Of a stretch of 32,353 nt of DNA, positions 6,426-31,120 are shown in pieces; positions within the stretch are counted from its first letter, which is position 1, and the number at the start of each line of letters is the position of its first letter. Location of the stretch: NCBI GenBank assembly GCA_029210695.1, contig JARGFH010000044.1, forward strand, positions 1 through 32,353, written 5' to 3'. Origin of the DNA: Acidimicrobiia bacterium. Its GTDB lineage: Bacteria > Actinomycetota > Acidimicrobiia > Spongiisociales > JAHEDJ01. Made by a program: the position numbers and the translations under genes. The notes under the pieces are model-generated. The model saw only the letters and a program-made list of their open reading frames with translations. It did not search any database and was not told the DNA's origin.

Positions 6426-6508
6426 TAGGCCGTAGGCTGTGGGCCGTAGGCCAGAAACGCCCAATACCTACAACCTATTACCTACAACCTTTTTACCTAC
6501 TACCTTTT
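6426..6508. repeat. Degenerate heptamer tandem repeats between coaA and the Nudix gene
   Basis: Two arrays. At 6426-6453 the units are TAGGCCG, TAGGCTG, TGGGCCG and TAGGCCA, which read GCCTACG-like on the minus strand. At 6466-6508 the units are ACCTACA, ACCTATT, ACCTACA and ACCTTTT, then, after a one-base slip, ACCTACT and ACCTTTT. The second array ends one base before the Nudix start codon, so the leader of that gene is made entirely of repeat. Confidence 0.7.
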
Positions 6509-8460: not shown

Positions 8461-8501
8461 TCGCGGGTCTGACGAGCTACCCGCGACGAGCAACCCGCGA
8501 C
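8460..8501. repeat. Inverted and direct ACCCGCGAC repeats after truA
   Basis: GTCGCGGGT (8460-8468) can pair with ACCCGCGAC at 8479-8487, or with a second copy at 8493-8501. The two direct copies are exactly 14 bases (two heptamer periods) apart. The same CGCGGGT unit forms the long array at 15467-15564. The hairpin could weaken transcription after truA but has no T-tract. Confidence 0.55.
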
Positions 8502-9068: not shown

Positions 9069-9080
9069 GGACGCCCGATC

Positions 9081-9156
9081 GCCTATCGCCCAACGCCTAG
9101 GGCCCACTGCCTACTGCCACCGCCTATCGCCGGGTGCCAATTGCCAATTCCCATTC
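9081..9156. repeat. Degenerate heptamer array before the LytS-like kinase gene
   Basis: Successive units are GCCTATC, GCCCAAC, GCCTAGG, GCCCACT, GCCTACT, GCCACC (6 bases), GCCTATC, GCCGGGT, GCCAATT, GCCAATT and CCCATTC. The GCC frame keeps a 7-base period with one slip, and decayed units may continue to about 9195. A TTG at 9141 inside the array opens the kinase frame, but it is unlikely to be the true start. Confidence 0.7.
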
Positions 9157-9209
9157 TCCAAGAACCTATTGCTTATCTCTCGGGCCCATTGCTACGTTCC
9201 TCCCAACGT

Positions 9210-11185: not shown

Positions 11186-11475
11186 GGGACGACCGCAACA
11201 CGGCACTCGATCCGATCTACCTTCGTACGGTTCTGAGGGTCAATTTGTCGACGTCGCTCTTCTATTTCGGGCTCTTCTTGCTCGTCATACTCGGCGGTCC
11301 GATCGTCTTCTGGCTGTTTCCATCGTTGGCGACGACCTACCTGTGGTCGCTGCCACTTCCGTGGCTGTTTCTCGGAGTCGCCGGATTCCCGATGCTGGTG
11401 CTCATCGCCTGGAGCTACCTCGGCGCAGTCGAGGAGGATGAGGACGAGTTCTCAGACCTGGTGGATACGCCGTGA
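11182..11475 (+). CDS. Small two-helix membrane protein, probable symporter partner
   Basis: A 97-aa protein with two hydrophobic helices (about 27-47 and 56-80) and a strongly acidic C-terminal tail (EEDEDEF). It overlaps the regulator gene upstream and the symporter gene downstream by four bases each. Its size and position match the small DUF485/DUF4212-type subunits that accompany acetate-type sodium:solute symporters, although the sequence is divergent and I cannot assign it to either family. It may stabilise or modulate the symporter. Confidence 0.75.
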   Translation: MRDDRNTALDPIYLRTVLRVNLSTSLFYFGLFLLVILGGPIVFWLFPSLATTYLWSLPLPWLFLGVAGFPMLVLIAWSYLGAVEEDEDEFSDLVDTP

Positions 11476-13181
11476 CATTGACGACGATCTTCGTAGGAGC
11501 GGTGATCGTCGCCACTTTCACTATCGGCCTGTTCGGCATAAGGATCGCCCGCACCACATCGGACTTCTTCGTCGCCACCCGGGCGGTCGGGTCGATCTGG
11601 AACGCTTCCGCCATCTCGGGCGAGTACCTCTCCGCGGCCTCTTTTCTCGGCATTGCCGGATTAGTCATGAAGTTCGGGGCTAGGGCGATGTGGTTTCCAC
11701 TCGGTTATGCGGCCGGGTATGTGATGTTGCTGCTCTTTGTCGCGGCACCCCTCAGGCGCTTCGGTGCCTACACGATCCCGGACTTCGCCGAGGGGCGCTT
11801 TGCCAGCCGGCGCCTCCGACGCATCGCCGCACTCCTGGTTCTCCTCATCGGGTGGTTCTACCTCGTTCCTCAGATGAAGGGCGCAGGTGTGACTCTCGAA
11901 CTCCTCGCCGGCGTGCCCTACTGGGTAGGCGTGGTCGTCGTGGGGGTCCTCGTCATTGCAGCCGTGGCATTTGGCGGGATGAAGGGCATCACCTATGTGC
12001 AGGCCTTCCATTTCTGGACCAAGCTCACTGCGATTTCATTCTCGGCTCTGGTTCTGCTGATTGCGCTCGGCTGGTCGTCCGGCGCTCGCACTCCATTTGC
12101 GGCCGGATTGCCGACTTTCCCCGATGACACAGAAGTTACCTTCGCTCGCGACACCCGGTTGGAGGTGCCGGAGTCGATCGTCGTTGCCGTCAACGGTGCG
12201 GCGGTTGTGTGGTCGGCGGGCGAAATCGAGGTGCCTGCCGGCACGAAGGCGGCGTTCGCCGCGGGTGACGTGGCTCCGACGGCGTCATCGATCGGCGCCA
12301 GGGACGGCACGGCCTGGACCGTGCCGTTCCCGGATGGTGAGCGGTACGGTCTGCTGGGCGCCGTTTCGCTCCTGATCGCCACCGTGCTCGGGACAATGGG
12401 GTTGCCACACATCCTCGTGCGGTTCTACACGAATCGCGACGCACCGTCGGCCAGGCGCACGGCAGTCGTGATCCTCGGATTTGTCGGGGTCTTCTACTTC
12501 TTCCCCTGGATCTATGGAGCGCTGGGCAGGGTGTGGGTTCCCGAGTTGTACGTGACCGGCGATACCGACACCGTGGTGCTGGCGCTGCCCCGTCTGCTCG
12601 ATGGGACCCTCGGCGAGTTCATCTCGGCGCTGGTGGCGGCCGGCGCCTTCTCCGCGTTCATCTCGACGTCATCCGGACTCCTGATCAGCGTCGCCGGGGC
12701 GTTGAGCCACGACCTCTACGCGCAACTCCTGCGCCCTGCCGCTTCGGCTGCTCGAAGGCTCTGGTACTTCAGGGCAGGGGCCGTATTCGGTGGGATCGTG
12801 GCGATCGGGCTCGGTTTGCTCGCCCGGCCGTTCGACATCAACATTCTGGTCGGATGGGCGTTCGCCATCGCCGCCAGCGCCTTCTGTCCGCTCTTGATTC
12901 TCGGCATTTGGTGGCGAGGGCTGGCCGCCCGCGGTGCCGCCCTTGGGATGATCGTTGGGGGAACCACCGCCACGGCCGCCATTCTCGTAACCATGCTTGG
13001 TGACGTCGATGGGTTGTTGGGGGCGCTACTGGCGCAGCCGGCGGTGGTGACGGTTCCTCTGGCGTTTGCCGTCATGATCCTGTTCTCCTGGCGGGCACGT
13101 CCCCCCCGTCACGCCGACCGCTTGCTGCTGAGAATGCACATGCCCGAACGTGCTTCGGAACTGCTGCGAATGGAGCTCTAA
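11472..13181 (+). CDS. Sodium:solute symporter 1 (ActP-like, acetate/monocarboxylate)
   Basis: A 569-aa member of the SSS (SLC5) family with about 13 membrane helices. Family signatures include SGEYLSAASFLGIAG (about 49-63), GAYTIPDFAEGRF (about 98-110), FGGMKGITYVQAFHFW and TMGLPHILVRFYTNRDAPSARR. The last of these is typical of cation/acetate symporters of the ActP group. An unusual hydrophilic, beta-rich insertion (about 205-292, with repeated VPESIVVAV and EVPAGTKAAF segments) probably forms an extracytoplasmic loop domain. The GTG start overlaps the small membrane protein gene by four bases. With Acs and PrpE encoded nearby, acetate, propionate or a similar acid is the likely substrate; this is inferred, not visible. 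Confidence 0.9.
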   Translation: MTLTTIFVGAVIVATFTIGLFGIRIARTTSDFFVATRAVGSIWNASAISGEYLSAASFLGIAGLVMKFGARAMWFPLGYAAGYVMLLLFVAAPLRRFGAYTIPDFAEGRFASRRLRRIAALLVLLIGWFYLVPQMKGAGVTLELLAGVPYWVGVVVVGVLVIAAVAFGGMKGITYVQAFHFWTKLTAISFSALVLLIALGWSSGARTPFAAGLPTFPDDTEVTFARDTRLEVPESIVVAVNGAAVVWSAGEIEVPAGTKAAFAAGDVAPTASSIGARDGTAWTVPFPDGERYGLLGAVSLLIATVLGTMGLPHILVRFYTNRDAPSARRTAVVILGFVGVFYFFPWIYGALGRVWVPELYVTGDTDTVVLALPRLLDGTLGEFISALVAAGAFSAFISTSSGLLISVAGALSHDLYAQLLRPAASAARRLWYFRAGAVFGGIVAIGLGLLARPFDINILVGWAFAIAASAFCPLLILGIWWRGLAARGAALGMIVGGTTATAAILVTMLGDVDGLLGALLAQPAVVTVPLAFAVMILFSWRARPPRHADRLLLRMHMPERASELLRMEL

Positions 13182-13458: not shown

Positions 13459-13734
13459 GTGGATCAAGCCATAAAGGACTACTGGCGACGGAACGTACGC
13501 CTCAAACTCATCTTGTTGTCGATCTGGGCGTTTGTCTCGATCGTCTTGTCGATTCTCTTGATCGATGTTCTCAACGAGGCATCAATCGGAGGATTTCCAC
13601 TCGGATTCTGGATGGCGCAGCAGGGATCGATCTTTGTGTTTGTTGTTCTCATCTTCGTATATGCGAAGACTATGGATCGCTACGACACGGAGCTTGAAGC
13701 AACGCTGCAGGGAATGTCGGGAGGTAGCGCATGA
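13459..13734 (+). CDS. DUF4212 small membrane subunit of the sodium:solute symporter
   Basis: A 91-aa protein with two membrane helices (about 17-38 and 52-74) and the DUF4212 pattern YWRRNVRLKL, then GFPLGFWMAQQGSIFVFV and YAKTMDRYD. DUF4212 proteins are encoded directly upstream of VC_2705-type symporters and are thought to be their small subunit. The start is set by the strong ribosome binding site GGAAGGGAGG (13441-13450), eight bases before GTG at 13459. The frame is open back to 13336, but that part is proline-rich and lacks family similarity. The stop overlaps the ATG of the symporter gene (ATGA), indicating coupling. Confidence 0.9.
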   Translation: MDQAIKDYWRRNVRLKLILLSIWAFVSIVLSILLIDVLNEASIGGFPLGFWMAQQGSIFVFVVLIFVYAKTMDRYDTELEATLQGMSGGSA

Positions 13735-15410
13735 GCGTCGAAGTCTGGACGTGGATCGTTGTCGGCCTGACCTTCGCGCTCTACATCTATATCGCTCTGC
13801 GACAGCGGGCGAGGGATACCGAGGGCTTCTACGTGGCAGGCCACGGAGTTCCCGCGGTCGCCAACGGCATGGCCGTTGCCGCCGACTGGATGTCGGCTGC
13901 ATCGTTCATTTCGATGGCAGGCATCATCGCCTTCCTCGGTTCGGACGGTTCCGTCTACCTCATGGGTTGGACGGGCGGCTATGTGCTGCTGGCGCTGCTG
14001 CTGGCACCGTATCTGCGTAAGTTCGGCAAGTACACCGTTCCCGACTTCGTCGGCGATCGCTACTACAGCCAAACTGCCCGCATTGTCGCACTGGTGGCGG
14101 CGATCTTCGTTTCGTTCACCTACGTGGCCGGCCAGATGCGCGGCGTCGGGATCGTGTTCTCGCGGTTCCTGAACCTCGATATCAACGTCGGTGTGTTCGT
14201 TGGCATGGCGATCGTCACGGTCTATGCCGTCACCGGCGGCATGAAGGGCATCACCTGGACTCAGGTAGCGCAGTATTCGGTGCTGATCATCGCCTACTTG
14301 ATTCCGGCCATTGCCATCGCCTCGAAGCTGACGGGAATGCCGATCCCTCAGCTTGGCTTCGGCGGCGTGCTCGACGATCTGAACGCGATCCAGACGGATC
14401 TCGGATTCGGAGCGTATACGGAAGCCTTTTCGTCACTTTCGACGTTGAACGTCCTGTTCATCACGATTGCGCTCATGACGGGTACGGCCGGGTTGCCACA
14501 CGTGATCGTGCGGTTCTATACGACGAAGACGGTGCGGGATGCCCGCTGGTCGGCTGGATGGGCTTTGTTCTTCATCGCCATCCTCTATACGACGGCTCCG
14601 GCAGTTGCGGCCTTCGCCAAGACGAACCTGATGGACACGGTGTCGAACCAGCCGTACGAGCAGGTCAAGGCTGAGAACTCCTGGTTCGGCTCATGGGAGG
14701 AAACCGGTCTGCTCAGCTTCGATGACAAGAACGGCGACGGGATCATCAACTACCAGGCAGGCGACGGCAACGAACTGACCGTCGACCGCGACATCATGGT
14801 GCTCGCCAACCCGGAGATCGCGGGTCTCGCCGCCCCGATCACTGCGCTTGTGGCGGCAGGCGGCCTGGCCGCTGCACTATCGACGGCGTCCGGTCTTCTT
14901 CTGGTGATTGGATCTTCGATCGGGCACGACCTCTATACGAAGGTGTTGAAACGAGGCACCAATGAGGCTCAGCGGCTGCGTGCCGGTCGGATCGCGATGG
15001 GCGGCGGCGTGCTGGTTGCCGGCTACTTCGGGATCAACCCGCCCGGGTTCGTTGCGGAGGTGGTGGCATTCGCCTTCGGCCTTGCCGCGGCGAGTTTCTT
15101 CCCGGTCATCGTGTTGGGGATCTTCTGGAAGAAGGCCACGAAGGAGGGCGCGATTGCCGGGATGGCCATCGGCATGACGTTCACCTTCGTGTACATCGTG
15201 ATGACGGCCAACGGTCTGATGGACATCGATCCCTGGCTCTTCGACATCTCGCCGCAGGGCATCGGGACGGTCGGTATGGTCCTCAACCTGGTCACCACCT
15301 ACGTTGTCTCGAAGATGACGAAGGAACCGCCCGCCGAGGTCCAGGAACTCGTCGAGAGTCTCCGGATCCCCGAGGTGGCCAGCGCCTACCTCAAGGAGGG
15401 CAAGGCCTAG
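13731..15410 (+). CDS. Sodium:solute symporter 2, VC_2705/ActP type
   Basis: A 559-aa SSS-family transporter with about 13 helices. Signatures are EGFYVAGHGVPAVANGMAVA and DWMSAASFISMAGIIA (about 31-67), FGKYTVPDFVGDRYYS, GGMKGITWTQVAQY and TGTAGLPHVIVRFYT. In a hydrophilic loop the stretch DKNGDGIINYQ (about 332-342) matches an EF-hand/dockerin-like calcium-binding loop. It is followed by NELTVDRDIMVLANPEIA, a segment typical of this subfamily. With DUF4212 it forms a two-gene unit closed by a strong terminator. This type is usually linked to acetate and other short carboxylates. It differs clearly from symporter 1, so the two may divide substrates or affinities. Confidence 0.93.
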   Translation: MSVEVWTWIVVGLTFALYIYIALRQRARDTEGFYVAGHGVPAVANGMAVAADWMSAASFISMAGIIAFLGSDGSVYLMGWTGGYVLLALLLAPYLRKFGKYTVPDFVGDRYYSQTARIVALVAAIFVSFTYVAGQMRGVGIVFSRFLNLDINVGVFVGMAIVTVYAVTGGMKGITWTQVAQYSVLIIAYLIPAIAIASKLTGMPIPQLGFGGVLDDLNAIQTDLGFGAYTEAFSSLSTLNVLFITIALMTGTAGLPHVIVRFYTTKTVRDARWSAGWALFFIAILYTTAPAVAAFAKTNLMDTVSNQPYEQVKAENSWFGSWEETGLLSFDDKNGDGIINYQAGDGNELTVDRDIMVLANPEIAGLAAPITALVAAGGLAAALSTASGLLLVIGSSIGHDLYTKVLKRGTNEAQRLRAGRIAMGGGVLVAGYFGINPPGFVAEVVAFAFGLAAASFFPVIVLGIFWKKATKEGAIAGMAIGMTFTFVYIVMTANGLMDIDPWLFDISPQGIGTVGMVLNLVTTYVVSKMTKEPPAEVQELVESLRIPEVASAYLKEGKA

Positions 15411-15466: not shown

Positions 15467-15564
15467 GTCGCGGGTCGCGGGTCGCGGGTCGCGGGTCGCG
15501 GGTCGCGGGTCGCGGGTCGCGGGTCGCGGGTCGCGGGTCGCTGGTCGCGGGTCGCGGGTCGCGT
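15467..15564. repeat. Near-perfect tandem heptamer array (GTCGCGG)14
   Basis: Fourteen contiguous 7-base units span 98 bases. Twelve are exactly GTCGCGG, unit 11 is GTCGCTG and the last is GTCGCGT. The minus strand reads ACCCGCG per unit. The array starts five bases after the terminator stem and ends 53 bases before the next gene. Its purity suggests recent slippage-type expansion. Translated minus-strand frames give a seven-residue RPATRDP repeat, which is an artefact of the period and not a protein. Confidence 0.95.
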
Positions 15565-15617: not shown

Positions 15618-17384
15618 ATGCAACACGCAATCTTTCGGTTCCTATCCGAGATGACCGCGTTCGCCGGCGTTCGCCCGGCGGATATCGATGACTTGATCGA
15701 GGACATAACCGAAGCGGCTGCTGTCGGAGGCGAGGTCGTCACTCCACCAGGTCCCGTCGCCGTGATGTTCGGCGGGCTGCGGATCAGTGATCAGGAGGGC
15801 CGCAGCGTCGATGTCGTGGGCGCCGGCGAATTCTGGGTGCCGAGCCCGGGCCACACCGCCACGGCATCTTCCGCAACCACGTACCTTCTGCTCCCGGATC
15901 GGGCAATCGACCTGGCGTGGGAGGGCGAGGCAGGTCGGGCAGTTCTGGCCGGGCGGCAACGGACCGCCGGCGACGACCTTCGACTCACCTCGCGCCTGGT
16001 CTCCGACGTGATGGCCGCACCTCTCGTGGTCGGCGGGCACCTCGCGGCGCAGGCGGTGGCCGAGGCCATGACCCTGGAGGGGGCCACCGCAGCACTCGTC
16101 ACGGTTGGGGACCGTCTCGGAATCGTCACAGATCAGGACTTCAGGGCCAGGATGGTGGCGATCGGTCGGGACTCCTCCGGCCCCGTTCGTGACATCGCCA
16201 CCTTCCCGGTTACGACCATCGAATCCGGCGATCGTCTCCTGACGGCCCTGGAAGTGATGGTCGACCAGGGAATCAAGCACCTTCCCGTTCTGTTCGACGG
16301 TCGTCCGGTCGGCATGCTGGCCGATAGCGATCTATTCGGGACGATCGACGAGAGTCCATTCGCCATTCGCAGCGCGATTCGCAGCGCTCGGACCCCGGGC
16401 GCACTCGCCGAGGTCTATGCATCGATGCCCAGAATCGTTGAGCGGCTGCTGTCGCAGGGCATGGAAGGTATGGCCATCTCACGGCTGCTGGCCAACTTCG
16501 CAGAAGCCGCCACCGCCCGGGCCATAGAGTGGGCGACGGCTGAGCTCGGTCCCGCCCCCGGCTCCTACGCCTGGGTTGCCTTCGGGAGCCTCGCCCGGCG
16601 TGAACTCGCACTGCTTCCCGACCAGGATCACGCCCTCGTCGTGCCAAACGGGCTGGGCTCCAATCCCTGGTTTGATGGGATGGCCTCTCACGTGACCAGG
16701 GTTCTCGAGGAGGTCGGATACCCGCGCTGCAGTGGGGCGGTGATGGCCTCAGAACCGGATTGGCGCGGCGAGGAAGGCGAGTGGGAGCGGCGGTGGATTG
16801 CCTATCTGCTCGATGCCAGCCCGGTCCATCTTCTCGAATCGCAGATCGTCTTCGACTCGAGGGTCATCGCCGGAGATGCGACCCTGGCCGGTTCGTTCGC
16901 GGAGTTGCGTACGCGAGCCAGGAACGCAGGTCCCTTCCTCGCCTTGCTCGCCAAGCGGGCGGCCGACTTCCGTCCCCCGCTCGGGTTCATGGGGCGGATG
17001 CAGACCGAGCGGGGCGGCGACCACGCAGGAACGTTTGACCTCAAGGCGGGAGCGATCCTCCCGATTGTTCAGTTCGCCCGGATTCATGCCCTCGTCATCG
17101 ATGCTCCGATGGTCGGCACGATCGGCCGCCTGGAAGCGGCTGCGGCGGCGGGCGAGGTATCGGACGAGTTGTCCTCAATGCTCATCGAGGGTTACGAGCT
17201 TGCAACCACGATTCGTCTCGAACACCAGGTGGCACGCTGGCGGTTGGGCGAATCGCCAGACAACCGCATCAACCCCGACGAGTTGACGAGCTGGCGGCGA
17301 ATGGGCCTGCGGGAAGTGTTCAAGGCGATCAAGTCCGCCCAGGAGGCTCTGGCGCTCAACTTCTCGTCGGGGCTTGTGTCATGA
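15618..17384 (+). CDS. CBS-domain / DUF294 nucleotidyltransferase-like signalling protein
   Basis: A 588-aa cytoplasmic protein. A cyclic-nucleotide-binding-like beta domain (about 1-105) is followed by a CBS pair (about 125-245; VSDVMAAPLVV... and VTTIESGDRLLTALEVMVDQGIKHLPV). Next is the DUF294 nucleotidyltransferase-like domain with GSLARRELALLPDQDHALV: Gly323-Ser324 and the Asp335-x-Asp337 pair of a polymerase-beta-type active site. A DUF294 C-terminal helical domain (about 430-580) completes it. The architecture resembles GlnD-like regulators and proteins encoded beside acetate-type symporters in proteobacteria. It probably senses an adenine nucleotide and either modifies or binds a partner. 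The partner is unknown; the kinases and symporters around it are candidates. It opens the second signalling operon. Confidence 0.9.
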   Translation: MQHAIFRFLSEMTAFAGVRPADIDDLIEDITEAAAVGGEVVTPPGPVAVMFGGLRISDQEGRSVDVVGAGEFWVPSPGHTATASSATTYLLLPDRAIDLAWEGEAGRAVLAGRQRTAGDDLRLTSRLVSDVMAAPLVVGGHLAAQAVAEAMTLEGATAALVTVGDRLGIVTDQDFRARMVAIGRDSSGPVRDIATFPVTTIESGDRLLTALEVMVDQGIKHLPVLFDGRPVGMLADSDLFGTIDESPFAIRSAIRSARTPGALAEVYASMPRIVERLLSQGMEGMAISRLLANFAEAATARAIEWATAELGPAPGSYAWVAFGSLARRELALLPDQDHALVVPNGLGSNPWFDGMASHVTRVLEEVGYPRCSGAVMASEPDWRGEEGEWERRWIAYLLDASPVHLLESQIVFDSRVIAGDATLAGSFAELRTRARNAGPFLALLAKRAADFRPPLGFMGRMQTERGGDHAGTFDLKAGAILPIVQFARIHALVIDAPMVGTIGRLEAAAAAGEVSDELSSMLIEGYELATTIRLEHQVARWRLGESPDNRINPDELTSWRRMGLREVFKAIKSAQEALALNFSSGLVS

Positions 17385-17642: not shown

Positions 17643-20429
17643 GTGTTCGGTTGGGTCATTGTTGGCTCGGCGCTCGCCTACATCGGCTTGCTGTTCTTGA
17701 TCGCCCGCTATGCAGATCGCCGCGCCGAGCGCGGTCACAGCCTCATCGCCAACCCGTACGTCTACTCGCTATCGCTCGCCGTCTACTGCACCGCCTGGAC
17801 GTTCTACGGCAGTGTTGGAAGGGCGGCCTCCGCCGGCATCGGTTTTCTTCCGATCTACCTCGGGCCAACCTTGATGGCGGGGCTCTGGTGGGTCGTTCTT
17901 CGCAAAATAATCCGGATCAGCAAGCAGAACTCGATCACGTCGATTGCCGACTTCATCTCGTCTCGATACGGGAAAGGACTAGCGCTCGGCGTGATCGTCA
18001 CCGGCATCGCCGCGGTGGGCATCGTGCCCTACGTTGCACTCCAACTCGACGGAATCGCTACCAGTTTTGCGTTGCTCTGGCACTACCCGGACGTCACGTC
18101 GAGTGCTGTTGGTTTCACCGACCTCTTCGGAGGGACCGCTTTCTGGGTGGCGCTTCTGCTGGGGACGTTTGCAATCCTCTTTGGGACCAGGCACCTGGAT
18201 GTCACCGAGCACCATGAGGGTCTCGTAGCTGCTATTGCATTTGAGTCCGTCGTCAAGTTGTTTGCCTTCCTCGCCGTTGGGGTGTTTGTCACCTGGGGGC
18301 TGTTTTCGGGACCGGGCGATATCTTTACGAGAGCGGCTGCCGATACCGATATCTCTTCCTTGCTCCGATTCGAAGGCGGGGTCGAGGAGTACTGGGACTG
18401 GGGATGGCTGATGGTGTTGTCTGCACTGGCCATCATGTTCCTGCCGCGGCAGTTCCAGATGGCTGTGGTCGAAAACACCGATGAGAGCCATCTGAACAAG
18501 GCGATCTGGCTGTTCCCTCTCTACCTGTTCGTTATGAACCTCTTCGTTCTTCCGATCGCCGTCGGCGGGCGCCTCACGTTCGAGGCGGGATCGGTGGACC
18601 CGGACAACCTCGTGCTGCTGCTTCCCATGGCCGACGGTCAGCGACTGCTTGCCCTTGTGGCGTTCATCGGCGGCTTGTCTGCCGCCGCCTCCATGGTCAT
18701 CGTGGCCACTGTTGCTCTCTCCACCATGGTCTCCAACGATGTGGTGATTCCGGTGCTGCTCAGAGTTCGCTCCTTCCGCCTGGCCGAGCGTGGGGACGTT
18801 TCTTCGCTCGTGCTGGGCACCAGGCGGATCACCATCCTTTCGGTCGTTCTCCTCGGATATTTCTACTTCCGGCTGACCGAAGGAGCTCTGCCCCTGGTTT
18901 CGATCGGGCTGATCTCGTTCGCGGCAATCGCGCAACTTGCTCCTTCGATGCTGGGTGGGCTCTACTGGAAGCCCGGCAATCGCCGAGGCGCCATTGCGGG
19001 GATGGTTGCCGGATTCACGGTCTGGGCTTACACGCTCGCCATCCCAACCCTCGTCGAGAGCGGGCTCATGTCCGACGCCTTCATCGAGTCCGGGCCGTTC
19101 GGGATCGAGGCTCTCCGGCCGTTTGCCCTGCTCGGTCTGGAGGGGTTCGATCCGATCACCAACGGATTGTTCTGGAGTCTGTTGATCAACGCCGGCCTAT
19201 TCATGGTGGTGTCAATACTCACGGACCAGACACCGATAGAGCAGCGACAGGCTTCGATCTTCGTGGACGTGTTCAAGGGAGCCAGCGAACGAACCCAGGC
19301 ATCGGTATGGCAGGGCACCGCCTCGTTCGTCGAGTTGCGGTCGATTCTCGAACGAGTGCTGGGCTCGCAAAGGGCAGACGCGCTTCTGATGCGGTATGCG
19401 GCCACGCGGGGCATCGCCGAGTCCGGCGACCTGGAGGCCGACGCGGATTTGGTCACGTTCGTCGAACAAAGACTCGCCGGGGCAGTCGGGGCAGTCTCCG
19501 CCCGAGCGCTGGTTTCATCTGCTGTGGAAGAGGCCGTCCTCAGCCGCGACGAGGTCCTCGATGTGCTGGATGAAACGACCCGCGTCCTCGCCTACAGCCG
19601 GCAACTCGAGCAGCAACAGCGCGAACTGGAACAAGCGACTGAGGAGTTACAGAACGCCAACCTGCAACTTCTCGAGCTCGATCGGATGAAGGATGACTTC
19701 ATGTCGGCTGTGACGCATGAGCTCCGTACCCCGCTGACATCGATTCGCGCATTCACCGAGATACTGGATGACAACCCCGACCTCGATCATGATCAGCGCA
19801 GCCAGTTCCTCGACATCATCCTCAAAGAGAGCGAGCGGCTGACCCGCCACATAAACCAGGTCCTCGATTTCGCCAAAATCGAGTCGGGTACGCTCGAGTG
19901 GAAGATAGAGCTGCAGCCGCTGGGGCCGGTGGTCGAGGAGTCGCTGCAGCGTGTGGGCGAACTGCTCCGCCGACGGCACATAGACATGAGCATCGACCTG
20001 GGCCCGTCGGACCTGCAGGCGGAGTTCGACCACGATCGACTCATTCAAGTGATCATCAATCTGGTCTCCAACGCGGTGAAGTTCAGCGACCCGGACGAAC
20101 CGAGGGTGTGGGTGACCCTCCAGCAAGTTGACGGAGAGGCGCGGGTAACGGTCGCAGACAACGGCCCGGGGGTGCCGCCTGAACACCACGAGCTGATCTT
20201 CGAGAAGTTCCAGCAAGTCGCAGATGGGGACTCGGGCAAGCCGCGCGGTACCGGGCTCGGACTGCCAATCTCGAAGGAGATCATCACGCAACTGGGGGGT
20301 CGCCTCTGGATTGAAACCGCTCCAGGACCCGGCGCAGTGTTCTGTTTTGCTCTACCGTTGGCGGCCAGTCCGCCGGCTGACGATCCGGGAGGAGGTGAGG
20401 CAGTTGAACGCACGGATACTGATCGTTGA
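17643..20429 (+). CDS. CbrA/CrbS-type sensor: sodium:solute symporter domain fused to a histidine kinase
   Basis: A 928-aa membrane sensor. Residues about 1-530 form an SSS transporter-like domain with about 13 helices ([17 protein letters not shown] and [15 protein letters not shown] near 47-111; [14 protein letters not shown]). A STAC linker domain (about 545-650; [17 protein letters not shown]) and a short coiled coil follow. HisKA has His692 in [14 protein letters not shown]. HATPase_c has NLVSNAVKF (Asn810), VADNGPGV (about 838-844) and GTGLGLPI (869-876), so the kinase looks active. There is no PAS domain and no receiver. Relatives (CbrA, CrbS/MxtR) couple nutrient transport or sensing to regulation, and CrbS controls acetyl-CoA synthetase. 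The neighbouring receiver gene overlaps its 3' end and is the obvious partner. Confidence 0.94.
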
Positions 20430-20775
20430 CGATGAGCCGAATATCGTCATCTCGCTCGAGTTCCTAATGCGACACGAGGGCTATGAAGTCGAGGTTGCCT
20501 CCGATGGGGAAGAAGCGCTCGAGCTCCTTGCCTCGTTTCAGCCGGATCTCGTCTTGCTCGACGTCATGATGCCGAAGTTGTCGGGTTTTGACGTTCTGCA
20601 GCGCATCCGAAACGACGCCGATCTTCCGAACCCGGTGGTGGTCATGTTGACTGCCAGGGGTCGGGAGGCCGAGGCAGAAAAAGGAAGGGCGCTCGGAGCG
20701 GACGAGTACGTCACGAAGCCATTCGCGACTCGAGACCTCGTTGCCGTCGTACACCGGGCCCTCGAAGGTCGATGA
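20404..20775 (+). CDS. Single-domain (CheY-like) response regulator
   Basis: A 123-aa stand-alone receiver. It has the acidic pair in ILIVDDEPN, the phosphoacceptor Asp in [16 protein letters not shown] (about residue 54), the Thr in VVMLTARG and the conserved Lys in DEYVTKPF. It ends right after the last receiver helix, so it has no DNA-binding or enzymatic output. The start is TTG 20404, set by the strong ribosome binding site GGGAGGAGGTGA (20387-20398). The gene overlaps the kinase gene by 26 bases, and its stop overlaps the ATG of the kinase-exonuclease gene by four. It may relay phosphate from the symporter-kinase, or act allosterically on the next protein. Confidence 0.88.
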
Positions 20776-22865
20776 GAGGCCGCCGTTTCGAATCGACTGT
20801 GGCCGGCGTCGGCGCGGTCGCCACGGCCGTCGGCTATGTCGCTGCGTTGTGGATTGTCTGGGCGGGACTCGACGAAGCAGGTCGTGAGGGCTTCGGCGAG
20901 GTGCTCAATCTCCTGGTGCCTATCGGCCTGGCACTGGTGGCACTCGCCGGTGTCGTGGCCGGTCGGTTCTTTCGTTCGTTCATGGTGGCGACGCGCCGGA
21001 TGGCCGACGAAGTTGACCTCATCGCCACAGTCAATCCGGCCCACCGCATCGACCCGGGCGGTCCGACCCATCTGCGCAAGCTGGGGTGGTCCATCAATCG
21101 TCTGGCCGGGCGACTGTGGGAGAGCCTCGAGGATCAGGAGGCGGCGGTCGAGGCAGGCAGGAAAGCGGTCGGACATGAGAAGGAACGCCTGGCGGCGCTG
21201 ATGTCCGACCTCGCGCAGGGTGTCATCGTCTGCAACCTCGATGGACAGATCCTGCTCTATAACGGCGAAGCCCGGAACCTCCTGGCCGGCGAGGACGCGA
21301 ACTATGTCGGCCTGGGGAGGTCGGTTTTCGCGTTTCTCGATCGCAATGTCGTTCTCAATGCTCTGCATCATCTGCAACTGCGAGCCGAACGTGGTGCCAA
21401 AGTGCGTCCCCAACGCTTCGTCGCCACGATCCCTTCCGGCTTCGTCCTCCGCATGACCATGGTCGCCGTTCGCGATACTGCGGGGAGTTTCACGGGGTTT
21501 GTGCTGACACTGGAAGATGTGACGCACGAGCGAGCGGCCCGCGGCCGGCGCGATCAACTGCTTCGTTCCCTCACGCACGAGGCTCGTCAATCCGTCGCTG
21601 GAATCCGGGCGGCGATCGAGACCATCCTCTCGTATCCGGAGATGTCCGGCGGTGACATCGAGCGGTTCCGATCGGTGATCGCCGAGGAGGCCGAGCGGCT
21701 ATCGGCTCGGATCGACGACGTATCGGCCCAACACGCGGCAACACTCGAGTCGGCCTGGGAACTCGACGACATGCTCGGCGACGACCTTCTGCTGGCGCTG
21801 GCGAACCGGGTGGAGAGTTCCACGGGATTCCACGTGTCGACGGACGTCCGAGAGGATTCACTCTGGGTGAAGGTCGACGGTCTCGCCCTGATCGACCGAT
21901 TGGCCGCGGTGGCAGTCCACATGGCGGAACAGGTCGGGGCGGGCTCGATGGCCATCCGGATGCAGGAGGTAGGTCAGTTCGCCGCCCTCGACGTCGAATG
22001 GCCGGAGGCCGGAATCACTGAGTCCATGGTGGCTGCTTGCATGAAGGAGTCTTCGGTCGGCGAAAAAGATCTCGAATCTCTCGTCGCGTTGCACGGGGGC
22101 GAAGTCTGGTGCGAAACGGGGTCTGATGGGAATCCGTTCTTGCGAGTGCTTCTGCCGAAGGCCGTCGCAGTTCCGGCGCTGGCACTGCGGGTGCTCGATG
22201 AGGGTCGTCCGGAGTTCTACGACTTCGATCTATTCGAACAGCGGGAGACGGCATCCAGCCTCGACGATCGGCACCTGCGCGATCTGGTGTTCACCGTGTT
22301 CGACACCGAGACGACGGGACTCGATCCCAGCGGGGGAGACGAGATCATCTCGATTGGTGCCGTTCGGATCCTCAACGGGAAACTGCTCCGATACGAGGCA
22401 TTCGATCAGCTCGTCGATCCCCGTCGGTCCATTCCGGCCGAGTCGTACCAGATCCACAGAATCGACGCGGAGATGCTCGCCGGGCAGCCCACCATCGATG
22501 TCGTGCTTCCCCGCTTCGCCCGGTTCGTCGAGGATACGATTCTCGTCGGTCATAACGTCGCCTTTGATCTGAAGTTTCTTCAACTGAAGGAGGATTCCAC
22601 GGGGGTAACCCTCTCCAATCCGGTCCTTGACACCCTGCTGCTCGCCGCCGTCGTCTACCCGGAGTCGGATGTGCACAGTCTCGAGGCCCTCGCCCGACTG
22701 GTGGGAGTGCCGGTAACCGGACGGCATACCTCGCTGGGCGACGCACTGGTCACCGCAGAGTTGTTCCTGCAGCTCATCCCTCTGCTCGAGGCACGCGGCT
22801 TGCGCACGTTCGCGCAGGTGCAGAGAGCAGAGAAAGAGACGTTCTATTCTCGACTGGAATACTGA
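20772..22865 (+). CDS. Degenerate PAS-histidine kinase fused to a DnaQ-type 3'-5' exonuclease
   Basis: A 697-aa protein. Two membrane helices (about 11-33 and 46-66) and a HAMP-like linker lead to a PAS-like domain (about 138-250). A HisKA-like segment, [20 protein letters not shown], has His269. The following ATPase-like region (about 325-465) lacks a recognisable N-box and DxGx[18 protein letters not shown] sits where NLLxNAxKF would be. It is probably a pseudokinase. The C-terminal part (about 505-675) is an intact DEDDh exonuclease: FDTETTGLD (Asp511, Glu513), [11 protein letters not shown] (Asp599) and [10 protein letters not shown] (His652, Asp657). DnaQ-like nucleases often adjoin DUF294/symporter clusters, but here the nuclease is tied to a membrane sensor scaffold. 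Its substrate (DNA, RNA or a small nucleotide) is unknown. Confidence 0.9.
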
Positions 22866-22878
22866 CGTTCGTAGGCTA

Positions 22879-22920
22879 CCTATTGCCTGTTGCCTGTTGC
22901 CTATTGCCTATTGCCTGTTG
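22879..22920. repeat. Heptamer array (CCTRTTG)6 between convergent genes
   Basis: Six contiguous units: CCTATTG, CCTGTTG, CCTGTTG, CCTATTG, CCTATTG, CCTGTTG. They fill most of the 60-bp gap between the convergent kinase-exonuclease and hybrid-kinase genes. No hairpin terminator is visible in the gap. Confidence 0.85.
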
Positions 22921-22925
22921 CCCGG

Positions 22926-25900
22926 CTAGCTGTGGACGATGCCCGCTTCGGCGATGAGTCGGCGCAGTTCCGGCTCGAGCAAGGTCAGCTCGGCCTGCAA
23001 ACTCGGCCACGCACTCGTCGCCCCTGCGAGGTCGCCGGCTTTGGCGATGTCGTTTAGATGGCGGGCGGCGCCAAAGGTGCCTGTAGCCCCGAGCAGCCCC
23101 GAGCTGCCCTTGATCCGGTGTGATGCCCCGGCGATAGCCGTCAGGTCGTTCCGGTCGAATCCTTCAGCGATCGCTTCCGAGAGCATCTTCGCTTCCTCCA
23201 GGAAGAGCTCGGCCATTTCAGCCAGCACGTCGAGCATTCCTTCGACCCGGGCCAATCCGTCTTCGCGGTCGAACACGACAGGACGGGGTTGCTCGGGCGC
23301 TGCCTCCGCCGGTGCACCGGAGACGCTTCCGTGTGGAACCATCTGCTCCAGAACGGCGAAGAGCTCCTCGGCTCGGAATGGTTTTGCCAGAAATCCGTCC
23401 ATTCCGGCTTCGAGGCAACGGTCGCGATCGGAGTCCATCGCGTGAGCGGTGAGAGCGATTATGGGCAGATGGTGGTCGGCGGCCTCGTTGGTGCGGATAA
23501 CCGCGGTTGCTTCCAGGCCATCCATTCCCGGCATCTGGACATCCATCAAGACTGCGTCGAAGCTCCCATCGGCGACCGCCCGAACGGCCTCGTATCCATT
23601 CTCGACTGCTACCGCGACGTGACCGCGCTTCTCCAGGAGCCGCAGCGCCAGACGCCGGTTGGTCGGGCTGTCGTCGGCAACGAGGACCCGCATCCTGGTT
23701 CTTCGTTCTCGAATCCAATGCCGCGTGACGAGGAGATCGGGACGGGAGGGGCCGGAGAGGACTCGAACAATCTCGAGTAGCTCGGATGAGCTGATCGGTT
23801 TGGCAAGGTAGCCAGATGCGCCGGCCGAACGGTATTCGCTAGCTTCGCCGCGTTGACCGGATGTCGGACAAACAACAACGGGTATGCCGTTGAAGGCCCC
23901 ATGTCCAGACACCCGGGAGGCCATTCCGAGGGTGTCTTGTTCGTGCTCGATGATGATCACATCCGGTCGACGACGGAGTCGCTCGATCTTCGTCATGACT
24001 TCGACCGCATCCGGGAGGCCCATCGCCCCGACGGACGACACCCCTCCCTGGCGGAGCATCTCTGTCAGGTTGCGCTGGGCGGCGGCGGAGTCGGTGATCA
24101 GCAGAGCATGAACATTGCCGGACGCTTCGGGACCGAGGGATTGCAGCAAGACTGCCTCGTCATCAGCCACGCCGAGTGAGGCTGTGAAATGAAAGGCGCT
24201 TCCAGAGCCGAGGGCGCTCTCCACCCAGATGCGACCGCCCATCTTCTCGACCAGTTCGGCAGTGATAGTCAGCCCGAGCCCCGTCCCTCCGAACCGGCGG
24301 GTGGTTGAACCGTCTGCCTGGGCGAATGCCTCAAAGATCTTCTCCTGCTTGTCGGCAGGGATTCCCACCCCGGTGTCTGCAACGGAGACATGGAGGTCGA
24401 TGTTGGAGTCGGTGAGCGCGGTGGCGTTGACAAACACGCTGATCCCACCGACATTGGTGAACTTCACCGAGTTGCCTACCAGATTGAACAGAATCTGACG
24501 GATCCGCCCGGGGTCTCCAACGACGGCGTCCGGTATGTTGGGGTCCAGTTGGTAGTTGAGAGCGAGGCCTTTGGCTGCGGCCCGCACGGCGATCGTCCGA
24601 ATGGTGTCTCCGACGGTCTCGGCGAGGCTGAAGGGGATGGCCTCCAGTTCGAGTTTACCTGCCTCGATCTTCGACACGTCGAGCAGATCGTTCACCAACG
24701 TCAAGAGGCTGTCGACCGACAACTTGACAGTTCCGAGGTACTCGCGCTGTTCCCCGGTCAAATCCGTCGCAAGTGCCAGTTCCGTCATCCCCTGAATAGC
24801 GTTCATCGGAGTCCGGATCTCATGGCTGACGTTGGCAAGGAATTGCGACTTGGCGTCTGTTGCCCTCTCCGCCGTCTCCTTCGCTTCCCGCAAGGCAGAC
24901 TCGGCGGCAACCCGCCTTTGCTCCGTCCTGATCGCATCCGTTAGGCCGGCGATCGTCGCGATGAACGGTTCGACCTGCTCGGCCAATTCTTGCGAGTACC
25001 CACCTGGACGATTGGCGATGGCGATGACCCCGACCACCGAGCCCGCTTGCCGGAAGGGAACGATCATTATCGAGTCGAGGTCATCGGCGTTGCCCGGATA
25101 AAGGGGAAGATCTTCGCGGGTGGGACGAGAGGCGATCACGGTTTCCTGGGTTCCCAGCGCCAGCCCGATCAGCCCCCCTGACGAAGCCGTTGTGCAGTCG
25201 GTCGCGTCGTTCTGCCACCCGGCGCCGCGGGCAGCGCGAACCAGTAGGTGGGATTCGTCGTCCACGGGAAGCATCTCCGCAATGAGGCCCCAGTTGCTGT
25301 TCGTCAGCCGGAGGAGGTCGTCGAGTAGGGATTCGAACTGATCAACCCGGCTTCCACTCGTGCGAATGAAGCGAAGCTGTGCGTTGGCGACGCTGTCGAG
25401 GAGTTCGTTTTTGGCGGCGAGATCTCGCTGCGTGTTTCTCAATCTGGAGACGTCGACGATGGAAACGAGGACCCGCCCGAGGTCGAGGCCGCCCTTGCCG
25501 TCGGGAGGCGCCTCCCAATGCATCACACAGTCGAACGGGTTTCCTTTCAATGTTGTGCCCGAGAAGTCGATGACGAGATGATCCTGTCTCGCCCAGATGG
25601 CAACGAGTTGCTGGAGGAACGACCTCCTGGCATCTTCGTCGACCGTCTCCGCATTGATCGATCCGAGCAGGTCCTCGGGGCCGTCGGCCTCCAAGAGAGC
25701 AACTGCGGCTTCGTTGACATCGATCACACGGATGGCGGCAAGAGCCTGGTCGAATACGTCGGGATTGTCGATCAGATGGCTGCGAAGGTCGACGACCCCA
25801 TCGGTCCGCAAACGATCGAGGATCGCGGCGGCGCCGCGGTAATCCTCCTGCCAGATCGACGTTGGAGCGCGGGCGAAGAGCGCCTGATAGCCGAGCTCAC

Positions 25901-26468
25901 TGTTCTGGACCGCGGTGGCGATCCGATGGAGAGCGCCGGCGATGACCACGAAGACCGCCACTTCGAGAGCCATGGTGAACAGGTGTGTCTGCCGGGCACC
26001 GGCAAAGACCCCCGATCCCTGGTCTGCCGCCCACAGGACCTGGAGAGCCCAGATGGTCCCCAGATAACCGAGGTAGATGACCAGCCGTCGGCCGCGGACG
26101 AACAGACTTCCGACCGCACCGAAGGCCGCCACACCCACGAGGAGGGGGCTCCAGCGCTCGGCTGGTTGAACGGGCATCTCGACGGCAGCCAGGGTTGCCA
26201 CAACGAGAATCAGTTGCGCAGCATTCACACTGCCTCGGTGCAACTGGAGAAACGCGAACCCGCCGGTTACGAGCGAGAGGGATGCCAGGAAGGCTATACC
26301 CGCGTCGGAAAAGGCGGCGGCGGCGATCAGGAGGGGTATGCCGAGGAGAACCCCGCCCCACTGAAGGCCGCGAACGACGGCACCTTCGATGGCGGCGGAC
26401 GTGCTTTCTACAACGTCGCGTTGCGAGACGGGTGCGATCTCCGCCCGGGTTCCCAGTGGCACAGCCAT
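22926..26468 (-). CDS. BarA-like hybrid sensor histidine kinase with pseudo-receiver, receiver and Hpt
   Basis: A 1180-aa membrane sensor. About six helices (37-185) are followed by a PAS-like region (about 190-345), a GAF domain (about 370-515) and HisKA with His549 in [19 protein letters not shown]. HATPase_c has [20 protein letters not shown] and [10 protein letters not shown] first receiver (about 785-905) has Glu841 where the phospho-Asp should be (DVIIIEHEQ). A second, complete receiver has Asp976 in [13 protein letters not shown], and the Hpt domain has His1117 in [14 protein letters not shown]. This is the phosphorelay order of BarA-type kinases, members of which can respond to short-chain carboxylates. 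It is convergent with the acetate-type cluster. No dedicated output regulator lies next to it. Confidence 0.93.
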
Positions 26469-27170: not shown

Positions 27171-27199
27171 TTGTCAGGGCGTGTCCCTCGAATTGTGAT
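27171..27199 (+). promoter_or_regulatory. Candidate promoter for acs-prpE
   Basis: TTGTCA (27171-27176) and TGTGAT (27194-27199) are 17 bases apart. They lie upstream of the acs ribosome binding site GGAAGGAG (27221-27228) and GTG start (27234). The -10 match is only four of six. A short CCCGC/GCGGG hairpin (27203-27215) lies in the presumed leader. I saw no obvious operator for the LytTR or other regulators here. Confidence 0.35.
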
Positions 27200-27233
27200 G
27201 TGCCCGCGTCGCGGGCGGCAGGAAGGAGCTTTT

Positions 27234-29195
27234 GTGTCAGACAGCAGCCGTCAGGCCATCGAGAACCTCTCCACGGAGAACCGGGTCTTCCCACCGTCCG
27301 ACGAATTTGCCGCGCAGGCCAACGCAAAACCAGGCCTTCACGAACAAGCTGAAGAAGACTGGCTCGGTTTCTGGGAGCAGCAGGCAAGGAGCCGGATCAC
27401 CTGGTTCAAGGAACCGACAGAGATCCTCGACGACTCGAATCCGCCCTTCTTCAAGTGGTTCAAAGACGGCGAGCTGAACGTCACCTACAACTGCCTAGAC
27501 CGTCATCTCTCCTCTCAAGGCGACAAGGTCGCCTATCACTGGATCGGAGAACCCGGCGACACCCGGACGTTCACCTACCGCGAGCTATACGAAGAGGTCA
27601 ATCGCTTCGCCAACGGGCTGGTAGAGCTTGGTGTCGCGAAAGGCGATCGGGTCGCCATCTACATGGGGATGATCCCCGAACTACCGATTGCGATGCTCGC
27701 ATGCGCCCGCATCGGCGCACCCCACTCCGTAGTGTTCGGCGGATTCTCCTCGGACGCGCTGGCCGACCGCATCAACGATGCAGAAGCCAAGGTCGTTATC
27801 ACCCAGGATGGGGCCTGGCGACGCGGGAGTGTGGTCCCACTCAAGGTGAACGCCGATGTTTCGGTAGCGCAAAGCCCATCGATCGAGCACGTGGTGGTCG
27901 TGAAGCGCACAGACAACGACGTGATAATGACCGAGGGTAGGGATGTCTGGTACCACGACCTCATCGAAGGGAAGCCGACGGAGTTCGAGCCGGCCGTGAT
28001 GAACGCTGAAGACCTCCTCTATATCCTGTACACATCGGGTACGACCGGAAAGCCGAAGGGAATCGTTCACACGCAGGGCGGCTATCTGGCGGGTGTGACT
28101 ACGACGCACAGTTACGTTTTCGATATCAAACCGGACGACGTGTACTGGTGCGCAGCCGACATCGGGTGGGTCACCGGCCACTCCTACATCGTCTATGGGC
28201 CACTCGCCAACGGCACGACCGGCGTGATGTACGAAGGTGCGCCCGACTGGCCGGAGAAGGACCGCCTGTGGAAGATCATCGAGGATTACAAGGTCACCAT
28301 CTTCTACACGGCTCCAACCGCGATTCGTGCCTTCATGAAGTGGGGCGACGAGTTCCCTGCGGGGCACGACCTGAGCTCGTTGCGCGTACTCGGCACGGTC
28401 GGCGAGCCGATCAACCCCGAAGCCTGGATGTGGTACCACGAGCACATTGGCGGCAGCAGCCGTCCGATTGTCGACACGTGGTGGCAGACCGAGACCGGTG
28501 CCATCATGATCACCCCGCTGCCCGGCGCGGTACCAACCAAACCCGGGTCTGCCACGTTTGCCTTCCCCGGAATCTCGGCAGACGTCATCGATGAAGAAGG
28601 CAACTCGGTCCCGCTCGGTGGCGGAGGGTTTCTGGCCATCCGGCGTCCCTGGCCATCGATGCTGAGGACCATCTACGGCGACCCGGATCGCTACGTGCAG
28701 ACCTACTGGTCACGCATGGAGGGCGTCTACTTCCCGGGTGACGGCGCCAAGCGAGACGAGGACGGCTACTTCTGGCTCCTCGGCCGTGTCGACGATGTCA
28801 TGCTGATCGCAGGCCACAACATTTCCACCACCGAGGTTGAGTCTGCTCTCGTTTCACACCGGGCAGTTGCAGAGGCGGCCGTCGTCGGCCGCAAGGACGA
28901 AATCACCGGCCAGGCAATTGCGGCGTTCGTCACGTTGCGCGCCGGTGAAATCGGAGACGACAAACTGCTCCACGAACTGCGGGATCATGTCGCGGAGAAG
29001 ATCGGTGCGATCGCCAAACCGAAGAGCATCGTGTTCACCGACGACCTGCCGAAAACCCGGTCGGGCAAGATCATGCGGCGTCTTCTCAAAGACATCTCGG
29101 AGGAGCGGCAGCTAGGCGATGTGACCACGCTGGCGAACGAATCGGTGGTGCAGGCGATTGCCGCCATGTCGCAGACCAAGCCGAGCGACGAGTAA
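27234..29195 (+). CDS. acs: Acetyl-CoA synthetase (AMP-forming)
   Basis: A 653-aa cytoplasmic ligase: acetate + ATP + CoA gives acetyl-CoA + AMP + PPi. Family segments are all present: the N-terminal WLGFWEQQA...[18 protein letters not shown], the adenylation P-loop [34 protein letters not shown] and the hinge region [15 protein letters not shown]. The Trp of the DTWWQTETG motif marks the small acetate-sized acyl pocket. The C-terminal [14 protein letters not shown] includes the catalytic lysine that is reversibly acetylated in Acs enzymes. GTG 27234 is chosen from the ribosome binding site GGAAGGAG five bases upstream. The frame opens at 27171, but that extension is not Acs-like. The length is typical. 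It is followed 32 bp later by prpE. Confidence 0.97.
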
Positions 29196-29227: not shown

Positions 29228-31120
29228 GTGACATATCAGGAGATCTACGACCGGTCCTTGCGTGATCCGGCCGGGTTCTGGGCCGAGGCGGCTGAAGACA
29301 TCGATTGGATCGATCGGTGGGATACCGTCCTCGACGATTCCCGACCCCCCTTCTACCGCTGGTTCTCCGGTGGTTCTCTAAACACGTCGTACAACGCACT
29401 CGACCGGCACGTCGAAAGGGGGCGGGGCGATCAAAAGGCTTTGATCTACGACAGCGCCATGACCGACTCGGTGCGCTCCTATACGTACCGGGAGTTGCGC
29501 GACGAGGTGGCCCGGTTCGCCGGGGTGCTTCGCAATCACGGGGTCGACAAGGGCGACCGGGTGATCGTCTACATGCCGATGATCGCCGAAGCGGCAATCG
29601 CCATGCTGGCCTGCGCCCGCATCGGGGCAATTCACTCGGTGGTGTTCGGAGGGTTCGCAGCCAAGGAGCTTGCCACCCGCATCGATGATGCCAGGCCCAA
29701 AGTCATGCTGTCGGCCTCCTGCGGCCTCGAGCCGGGCAGGGTCATCGCCTACAAACCGCTGCTCGACGGGGCCATCGAGCTCTCGTCGCACAAACCAGAA
29801 AAGGCGATCATCCTGCAACGGCCCGAGCTGGAGGCGGAGCTGATTCCCGGTCGTGACCTCGATTGGAGGGAGGAGGAATCGAAGGCGTCTCCCGTGGATC
29901 CCGTTCCGGTAGCTGCCACCGATCCTCTCTACATCCTCTACACCTCCGGAACGACCGGCATCCCGAAGGGGGTTGTTCGTGACAACGGCGGGCATGCCGT
30001 TGCACTCAAGTGGAGCATGGACAACATCTACGACGTTCGGCCCGGTGAGGCCTATTGGGCGGCGTCGGACGTCGGTTGGGTGGTCGGTCACTCCTACATC
30101 GTTTATGCGCCGCTGCTTCACGGGAACACCACGATTCTGTATGAAGGAAAGCCGGTCGGAACGCCGGATGCCGGAGCCTTCTGGAGGGTGATTGCCGATC
30201 ACGACGTAGTGACCATGTTCACTGCCCCGACCGCGTTTCGGGCCATCAAACGAGAGGACCCCGACGGCAAGCTGCTGTCTGGATACGACCTCTCGAAGTT
30301 CAGGGCTTTGTTCCTGGCAGGAGAGCGCTGTGATCCCGACACATTGCAGTGGGCAGAGAACAAGCTCGGGGTTCCGGTGATCGACCACTGGTGGCAGACC
30401 GAGACGGGGTGGCCCATTGTCGCCAATCCGATGGGTATCGAGCCCTTGCCCGTCAAGGCCGGTTCTCCGACGAAGCCGGTTCCGGGCTGGGATGTTCAGG
30501 TGCTCGACGATTCAGGAAGCCGACTTCCGGCCGGCGAAATCGGCACGATCATGGTCAAACTGCCGCTGCCCCCTGGCACGCTGCCGACCCTGTGGAACAA
30601 CGACGAGGGCTATGTACATTCGTATCTCAACCACCACGAGGGTTTCTACCTGACCGGTGACGCCGGCTTCATGGATGAGGATGGATATATCTCGATCATG
30701 AGTCGCATCGACGACATCATCAATGTCGCCGGGCACCGCTTGTCTACAGGCGGCATGGAGGAAGTTCTGGCCAATCATCCAGACGTTGCCGAGTGCGCAG
30801 TGATAGGCGTCAACGACACCCTGAAGGGTCAGCTCCCGGTCGGGTTCGTTGTCCTCAACGCCGGCGCCAATCGATCTGCGGACGAGATCGAATCTGAGTT
30901 GATTGCCCTGGTCCGGGAGAAGATCGGTCCTGTAGCCACGTTCAAGACGGTGATGGTTGTCGACCGGCTCCCGAAGACCCGGTCGGGCAAGATCCTGCGT
31001 GGGACGATGCGAGCCATCGCCGACGGCGAGGAGTGGAAGATGCCCGCCACCATCGACGACCCGAAGATCCTGGACGAGATCACCCACTCGCTGGAGGGCG
31101 TCGGGTACCCGAAGGAGTAG
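29228..31120 (+). CDS. prpE: Propionyl-CoA synthetase (PrpE-type acyl-CoA ligase)
   Basis: A 630-aa AMP-forming ligase that activates propionate, and often other short acids, to the CoA thioester. It has the PrpE-type N-terminus (YQEIYDRSLRDPAGFWAEAAEDIDW), LNTSYNALDRHVERG, the P-loop YTSGTTGIPKGVVRDNGGH, IDHWWQTETGWPI and GRIDDI-like hinge MSRIDDIINVAGHRLSTGGMEE. The last two differ from Acs in the way PrpE enzymes do. [14 protein letters not shown] carries the acetylatable lysine. The start GTG 29228 follows a good ribosome binding site (AGGGAGGAGGAAAG). With acs it probably forms a two-gene operon for C2 and C3 acid activation. No methylcitrate or methylmalonyl pathway genes lie in the window. 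Confidence 0.93.
   Translation: MTYQEIYDRSLRDPAGFWAEAAEDIDWIDRWDTVLDDSRPPFYRWFSGGSLNTSYNALDRHVERGRGDQKALIYDSAMTDSVRSYTYRELRDEVARFAGVLRNHGVDKGDRVIVYMPMIAEAAIAMLACARIGAIHSVVFGGFAAKELATRIDDARPKVMLSASCGLEPGRVIAYKPLLDGAIELSSHKPEKAIILQRPELEAELIPGRDLDWREEESKASPVDPVPVAATDPLYILYTSGTTGIPKGVVRDNGGHAVALKWSMDNIYDVRPGEAYWAASDVGWVVGHSYIVYAPLLHGNTTILYEGKPVGTPDAGAFWRVIADHDVVTMFTAPTAFRAIKREDPDGKLLSGYDLSKFRALFLAGERCDPDTLQWAENKLGVPVIDHWWQTETGWPIVANPMGIEPLPVKAGSPTKPVPGWDVQVLDDSGSRLPAGEIGTIMVKLPLPPGTLPTLWNNDEGYVHSYLNHHEGFYLTGDAGFMDEDGYISIMSRIDDIINVAGHRLSTGGMEEVLANHPDVAECAVIGVNDTLKGQLPVGFVVLNAGANRSADEIESELIALVREKIGPVATFKTVMVVDRLPKTRSGKILRGTMRAIADGEEWKMPATIDDPKILDEITHSLEGVGYPKE

Follow-up and report, generated by a model that had tools for sequence, protein, structure and literature searches.

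The protein encoded at 20772-22865 on the forward strand of the window, i.e. the whole 32,353-nucleotide stretch of Acidimicrobiia DNA analysed here, joins a membrane-anchored histidine-kinase scaffold to a DEDDh exonuclease within a single open reading frame of 697 residues, for which both coordinates and strand are exact. There is a roughly even chance that this scaffold, which has lost its kinase chemistry, now serves to receive a two-component signal, with the exonuclease as the output. More tentatively, a complete two-component pathway with an enzyme output is proposed, in which a symporter-kinase would act through a bare receiver protein (REC) and the dead kinase on the tethered nuclease, so that carboxylate uptake would be controlled post-transcriptionally or by de-nucleotidylation. 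The best-supported inference within this pathway, drawn by analogy, is that phosphorylated REC would dock on the pseudokinase. The genes and domains concerned are collected in the table.

Table. Genes of the cluster and domains of the fusion protein
Feature	Position	Strand	Evidence
VC_2705-family sodium/solute symporter	13731..15410	+	TIGR03648 5.5e-244
CBS-DUF294-DUF294_C putative nucleotidyltransferase	15618..17384	+	Pfam
SSS symporter-like sensor histidine kinase, CrbS/RpuS-like layout, HisKA and HATPase_c intact	17643..20429	+	Pfam, profile alignment
Single-domain response regulator, REC only, about 123 aa	20404..20775	+	Response_reg 1.4e-30; start at 20404 (TTG) is an estimate, first ATG of the ORF at 20224
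Fusion gene, TM-PAS-pseudoDHp-pseudoCA-DEDDh exonuclease	20772..22865	+	ORF, Pfam, model
Two transmembrane helices, residues about 10-33 and 44-66	20799..20969	+	hydropathy; helices in model
PAS domain, residues 147-254, predicted cytoplasmic	21210..21533	+	Pfam PAS_4 7.2e-6; PAS-like secondary structure in model
Pseudo-DHp, two-helix hairpin, residues 256-330	21537..21761	+	HisKA match, alignment, model
Pseudo-CA, HATPase_c fold minus N, G1 and G2 boxes, residues 331-466	21762..22169	+	profiles, model
Conserved 10-residue linker motif, residues 479-488	22206..22235	+	alignments of relatives
DEDDh 3'-5' exonuclease domain, PolC/DnaQ-type, residues 503-697	22278..22862	+	RNase_T, structure matches
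Acetyl-CoA-synthetase-like gene	27171..29195	+	read from translation
Second acetyl-CoA-synthetase-like gene	29228-31120		Pfam

The two membrane helices are separated by a loop of approximately ten residues in the hydropathy profile, too short to form a periplasmic sensor domain, and the PAS domain that follows contains residues G180, G182, R183, N164 and C154 that are near-invariant among fusion relatives. Pfam matches were obtained for RNase_T (2.9e-33, residues 509-665) and PAS_4, and for HisKA at a score under the curated cut-off (4.4e-5, residues 260-317). The full-length AlphaFold2 model, with a mean pLDDT of 86.9, contains a two-helix DHp at about residues 251-328 and a CA-like topology at residues 332-463, and the protein is probably a dimer. 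The membrane helices, the PAS-like domain and the genuine nature of the fusion had all been proposed in a preceding sequence-only reading, and each is upheld here. The frame is open throughout in the window, as it is in the 95% and 80% identical copies carried by two of the genus's four other genomes, and dN/dS is 0.02-0.21 in each fusion domain without saturated synonymous change. A frameshift joining two genes, which by the same reading would have refuted the fusion, is excluded, as is an assembly artefact, by the intact frame in these three genomes and by dN/dS values well below one.

The fusion carries a complete DEDDh 3'-5' exonuclease of the PolC/DnaQ type. The five residues Asp511, Glu513, Asp599, His652 and Asp657, already described as fully conserved when only the window had been read, are each invariant in 75 of 75 full-length fusions. 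The domain is matched by 2p1j at 9.5e-30, and its fold corresponds to PolC (9qpc, Z 24.4) and E. coli epsilon (2gui, Z 21.5); that it degrades RNA or DNA from the 3' end is a prediction. Fold and DEDDh site are shared with the DnaQ and PolC proofreading domains, whereas the fusion lies outside any polymerase and is anchored in the membrane under a signalling scaffold.

Across the family, the kinase half is dead. At the phosphoacceptor column, 269, the 75 fusions have an acidic residue in 63 instances (Glu in 56, Asp in 7) and a histidine in one, the window sequence; both same-genus copies also have His, within a His-Glu pair at 269-270 that is common to these two and the window. Arg272, at position H+3, is retained in 69 of the 75. 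His269 is consequently ruled out as the family phosphoacceptor, and of the HisKA-like segment with His269 described in the sequence-only reading, the segment remains, as a weak HisKA match, while the histidine is not conserved. Profile alignment of the fusion to the intact neighbouring kinase demonstrated the loss of the N, G1 and G2 (GTGLGL) boxes, in agreement with the earlier description of a pseudokinase without N-box and DxGxG and extending it to the G2 box. The neighbouring symporter-kinases themselves are intact, with HELRTP, the N-box Asn, DxGxG and the G2-box glycines invariant in 52 of 52, and their CA domains match the CA of the fusion in profile-profile comparison (E 1.5e-10). Modelled alone, the CA segment reached a pLDDT of 91.5 and resembled histidine-kinase CA domains with Z scores up to 14.0 (1ys3_B, rmsd 2.8, 133 aligned), and DivL (4q20) with a Z score of 12.4. 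The DHp-CA fold is retained, although the catalytic and ATP-binding residues are gone. The region of residues 325-465 had been singled out in advance for a HATPase_c comparison; the ATP-binding residues are absent from it and Pfam finds no HATPase_c in the window's fusion, but the CA fold is retained in the model. A working histidine kinase is ruled out by the residues, the acceptor His and the N, G1 and G2 boxes being lost, the fold notwithstanding. Pfam detected HATPase_c in a single protein out of 12 in one subset of the fusion alignment and in none of 31 in another, and annotation therefore overlooks the signalling half. Trp410, near the former G1 position, is invariant across the family, and Trp365, Trp423 and His441 are nearly so. 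As such family-specific conserved residues replace the lost boxes, the kinase half is a specialised dead kinase, as opposed to a decaying one.

The fusion had initially been regarded as unusual, which is not borne out by its distribution. Of 398 sampled Pseudomonadota genomes, 53 contained a strong match, approximately 39 of these spanning nearly the full model with the same layout, and the layout also occurs in a few other phyla. A scan of a genome collection returned at least 80 fusion loci, mostly in the orders Burkholderiales and Rhodocyclales, with the other listed loci in Gamma- and Alphaproteobacteria, Deltaproteobacteria/Desulfuromonadales, Nitrospirota and one Caldilineaceae bacterium. 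Whole-length relatives with about 41-43% identity are present on Cupriavidus and Paracoccus plasmids, where their annotation reads no more than 'exonuclease domain-containing protein' or 'DNA polymerase III subunit epsilon'. In the phylum to which the window belongs, matches were obtained in 3 of 296 genomes, one of them the window's, and in the exonuclease tree the window's domain is placed among mostly proteobacterial sequences, so that inter-phylum transfer of the fusion gene appears likely. A full-text literature search, with most subscription journals outside its reach, found no described kinase-exonuclease fusion; the family is a widespread, conserved signalling nuclease that is, as far as the searched literature shows, experimentally unstudied.

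The gene order in the window is VC_2705-family symporter, CBS-DUF294, symporter-kinase, REC, fusion, convergent hybrid kinase and two acetyl-CoA-synthetase-like genes. The stop codon of REC overlaps the start codon of the fusion as ATGA at 20772-20775, as at many other loci, and the fusion is predicted from this arrangement to be translationally coupled to the REC gene in the window. Among the listed loci, the REC gene lies directly upstream of the fusion in 62 of 79; the sequence-only reading had recognised the link to symporter and DUF294 genes and overlooked this single-domain regulator overlapping the gene start. Flanking genes were counted at the 58 listed loci bordered on either side by 4 kb or more, which contained REC (47), symporter-kinase (42), DUF294 (41), symporter (37) and acetyl-CoA synthetase (17) genes. 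At least one of the last four was nearby in 53 of the 58, consistent with the association with a symporter/DUF294/acetate cluster that had been suggested. The REC proteins are bare receivers, with Asp53 (phosphorylation) and Lys105 in 64 of 64 and no output domain. A receiver of this kind needs a protein partner, and the constant neighbour is the fusion.

Several further features were observed at these loci. Between the symporter and DUF294 genes of the window, 14 near-perfect copies of the heptamer GTCGCGG occupy 15467-15563, and about six copies of CCTATTG occupy 22879-22922, in the gap separating the fusion's stop codon from that of the convergent hybrid kinase; shorter 14-15-mer arrays are found at 6465-6508, 8471-8501 and 9080-9131. 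The hybrid kinase (22926-26468, 1180 aa) contains GAF, intact HisKA and HATPase_c, two receiver stretches and Hpt. A His_kinase-family sensor kinase and a LytTR response regulator are encoded at 9141-11185, upstream of a second SSS symporter (11472-13181), and the island thus holds a second two-component pair. In Marivivens and Shinella, genes for 162 and 176 residues without a Pfam match lie between DUF294 and REC/fusion (L022:7715-8203 and L023:6471-7001), and at loci L140-L144 relatives of about 470-510 residues beside DUF294 have membrane helices, a PAS-like region and the exonuclease, without DHp and CA.

The closest functional precedent for signal reception by a dead kinase is DivL of Caulobacter, which has no kinase or phosphatase activity, yet senses DivK~P via its DHp docking surface, and in which mutation of R553, three residues past the altered acceptor Y550, reduces DivK~P binding (PMC4211667). 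Arg272 of the fusion is the positional equivalent of R553, which prompted a comparison of the state of the docking module with the presence of REC. Where REC was the neighbouring gene, DHp was intact with Arg at H+3 in 67 of 68 instances, compared with 11 of 27 where REC was absent (Fisher 3.5e-10, a value overstated because closely related sequences inflate p). Several of the REC-less relatives have most or all of DHp and CA deleted, with the membrane helices, PAS-like region and nuclease remaining. The association was not significant across phylogenetically independent, well-supported pairs, of which only four remained, too few for significance, although concordant or neutral in essentially all pairings, nor was there enrichment in REC-DHp covariation, with 11 of the top 100 pairs against 12.4 expected from only 59 sequence pairs. 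A further point against the docking reading is that HisKA domains have Arg at H+3 as their ancestral state. DivL and the fusion have in common the PAS, DHp and CA fold, a replaced acceptor, no expected kinase chemistry, a retained H+3 docking Arg and a single-domain response regulator as partner, here as an adjacent gene only. However, DivL acts by controlling the kinase CckA, without an enzyme output of its own, whereas the fusion carries an exonuclease, has mostly Glu as acceptor and has lost the ATP-binding boxes.

A possible, though unlikely, alternative is that the PAS domain alone exerts control, its ligand or the state of the membrane governing the nuclease, with the dead DHp and CA as a dimerising lever and REC acting elsewhere. 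The many near-invariant PAS residues are in keeping with this, as are the alphaproteobacterial-type relatives of about 470 residues without DHp and CA, which imply that the nuclease can work without them. However, such control would not account for the near-universal intactness of DHp beside REC and its frequent deletion where REC is missing, and the REC protein has no other output domain.

Under the preferred reading, in which REC docks on the pseudokinase, the symporter-kinase would sense the uptake or binding of a short carboxylate, e.g. acetate or pyruvate, and would phosphorylate the REC protein, which would then dock on a surface of the pseudo-DHp that includes Arg272, in the manner of DivK~P on DivL. 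Docking, together with PAS input, would alter the position or activity of the membrane exonuclease, which may trim 3' nucleotides from RNA (the first choice), ssDNA or a short oligonucleotide, such that carboxylate uptake or use would be adjusted. The signal-controlled degradation suggested in the sequence-only reading is likewise a proposal, and that reading is supported in part. A symporter-fused sensor kinase in carboxylate clusters is shared with CrbS/CrbR and RpuS/RpuR, but CrbR works on transcription, whereas here there is a bare REC and then the nuclease fusion.

In P. putida, the stand-alone exonuclease gene pp_0353 shares an operon with the CBS-domain gene pp_0354 and is controlled by MxtR/ErdR (CrbS/CrbR); growth on pyruvate was impaired by deletion of pp_0353, actP-I, mxtR or erdR and not by that of pp_0354, and a role of PP_0353 in mRNA degradation was put forward as speculation by the authors of that study (PMC9927547). 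The effect on pyruvate growth provides a precedent for a nuclease output here, and RNA is the first guess for the substrate because a post-transcriptional role fits this published speculation. The PP_0353/PA3232 type resembles the fusion in that an RNase_T/DEDDh domain is encoded with CBS-DUF294 and ActP-type symporters, in the CrbS/R (MxtR/ErdR) regulon (PMC9927547), but it has about 235 residues and neither membrane nor pseudokinase part. From Pseudomonadota, 15 stand-alone genes were recovered, all adjoining DUF294, and Pseudomonas sp. MMS21 TM103 contains both the fused and stand-alone forms at different places. In the trees, the two forms are on separate branches; as a single common clade is not rejected (p-AU 0.284), no claim of two independent recruitments is made.

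The constant DUF294 neighbour of the stand-alone genes (15 of 15), and its presence near 41 of the 58 well-flanked fusions, would also suit a nucleotidylation cycle in which DUF294 adds a nucleotide to a target, e.g. the symporter, for the DEDDh enzyme to take off again; harm to pyruvate growth from loss of PP_0353 or ActP-I, with harmless loss of PP_0354, is as expected if the eraser is lost while the writer is active. Such a cycle is nevertheless improbable, as several fusion loci have no nearby DUF294, the nucleotidyltransferase activity of DUF294 is only putative, and to our knowledge no DEDDh enzyme removes protein-linked nucleotides. Less probable again is a general DNA or RNA maintenance exonuclease that is membrane-bound by chance and has no signalling role in the cluster; the nearest solved relatives are indeed the PolC and DnaQ proofreading exonucleases, but the recurrence of symporter, symporter-kinase, DUF294 or acetyl-CoA-synthetase genes at 53 of the 58 loci, in distant taxa, argues against it. 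Spo0B-type phosphotransfer in the window's genus, with His269 taking phosphate from REC despite the dead CA, is very improbable: Spo0B accepts phosphate from the single-domain regulator Spo0F and His-Glu is kept in all three genomes of the genus with the gene, but Glu or Asp occupies this column in 63 of the 75 fusions, of which that of the window alone has His, so that such phosphotransfer cannot hold for the family.

As the fusion proteins receive no label from annotation pipelines beyond exonuclease or DNA polymerase III epsilon subunit, their signalling half is easily overlooked. If the proposed pathway is true, a family present in approximately one in ten sampled Pseudomonadota genomes would tie carbon-source sensing directly to nuclease action, and the principle seen in DivL, in which a dead kinase reads a phosphorylated regulator, would be extended from developmental control to enzyme output. 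It would also provide a testable framework for the P. putida exonuclease gene that is needed for normal growth on pyruvate.
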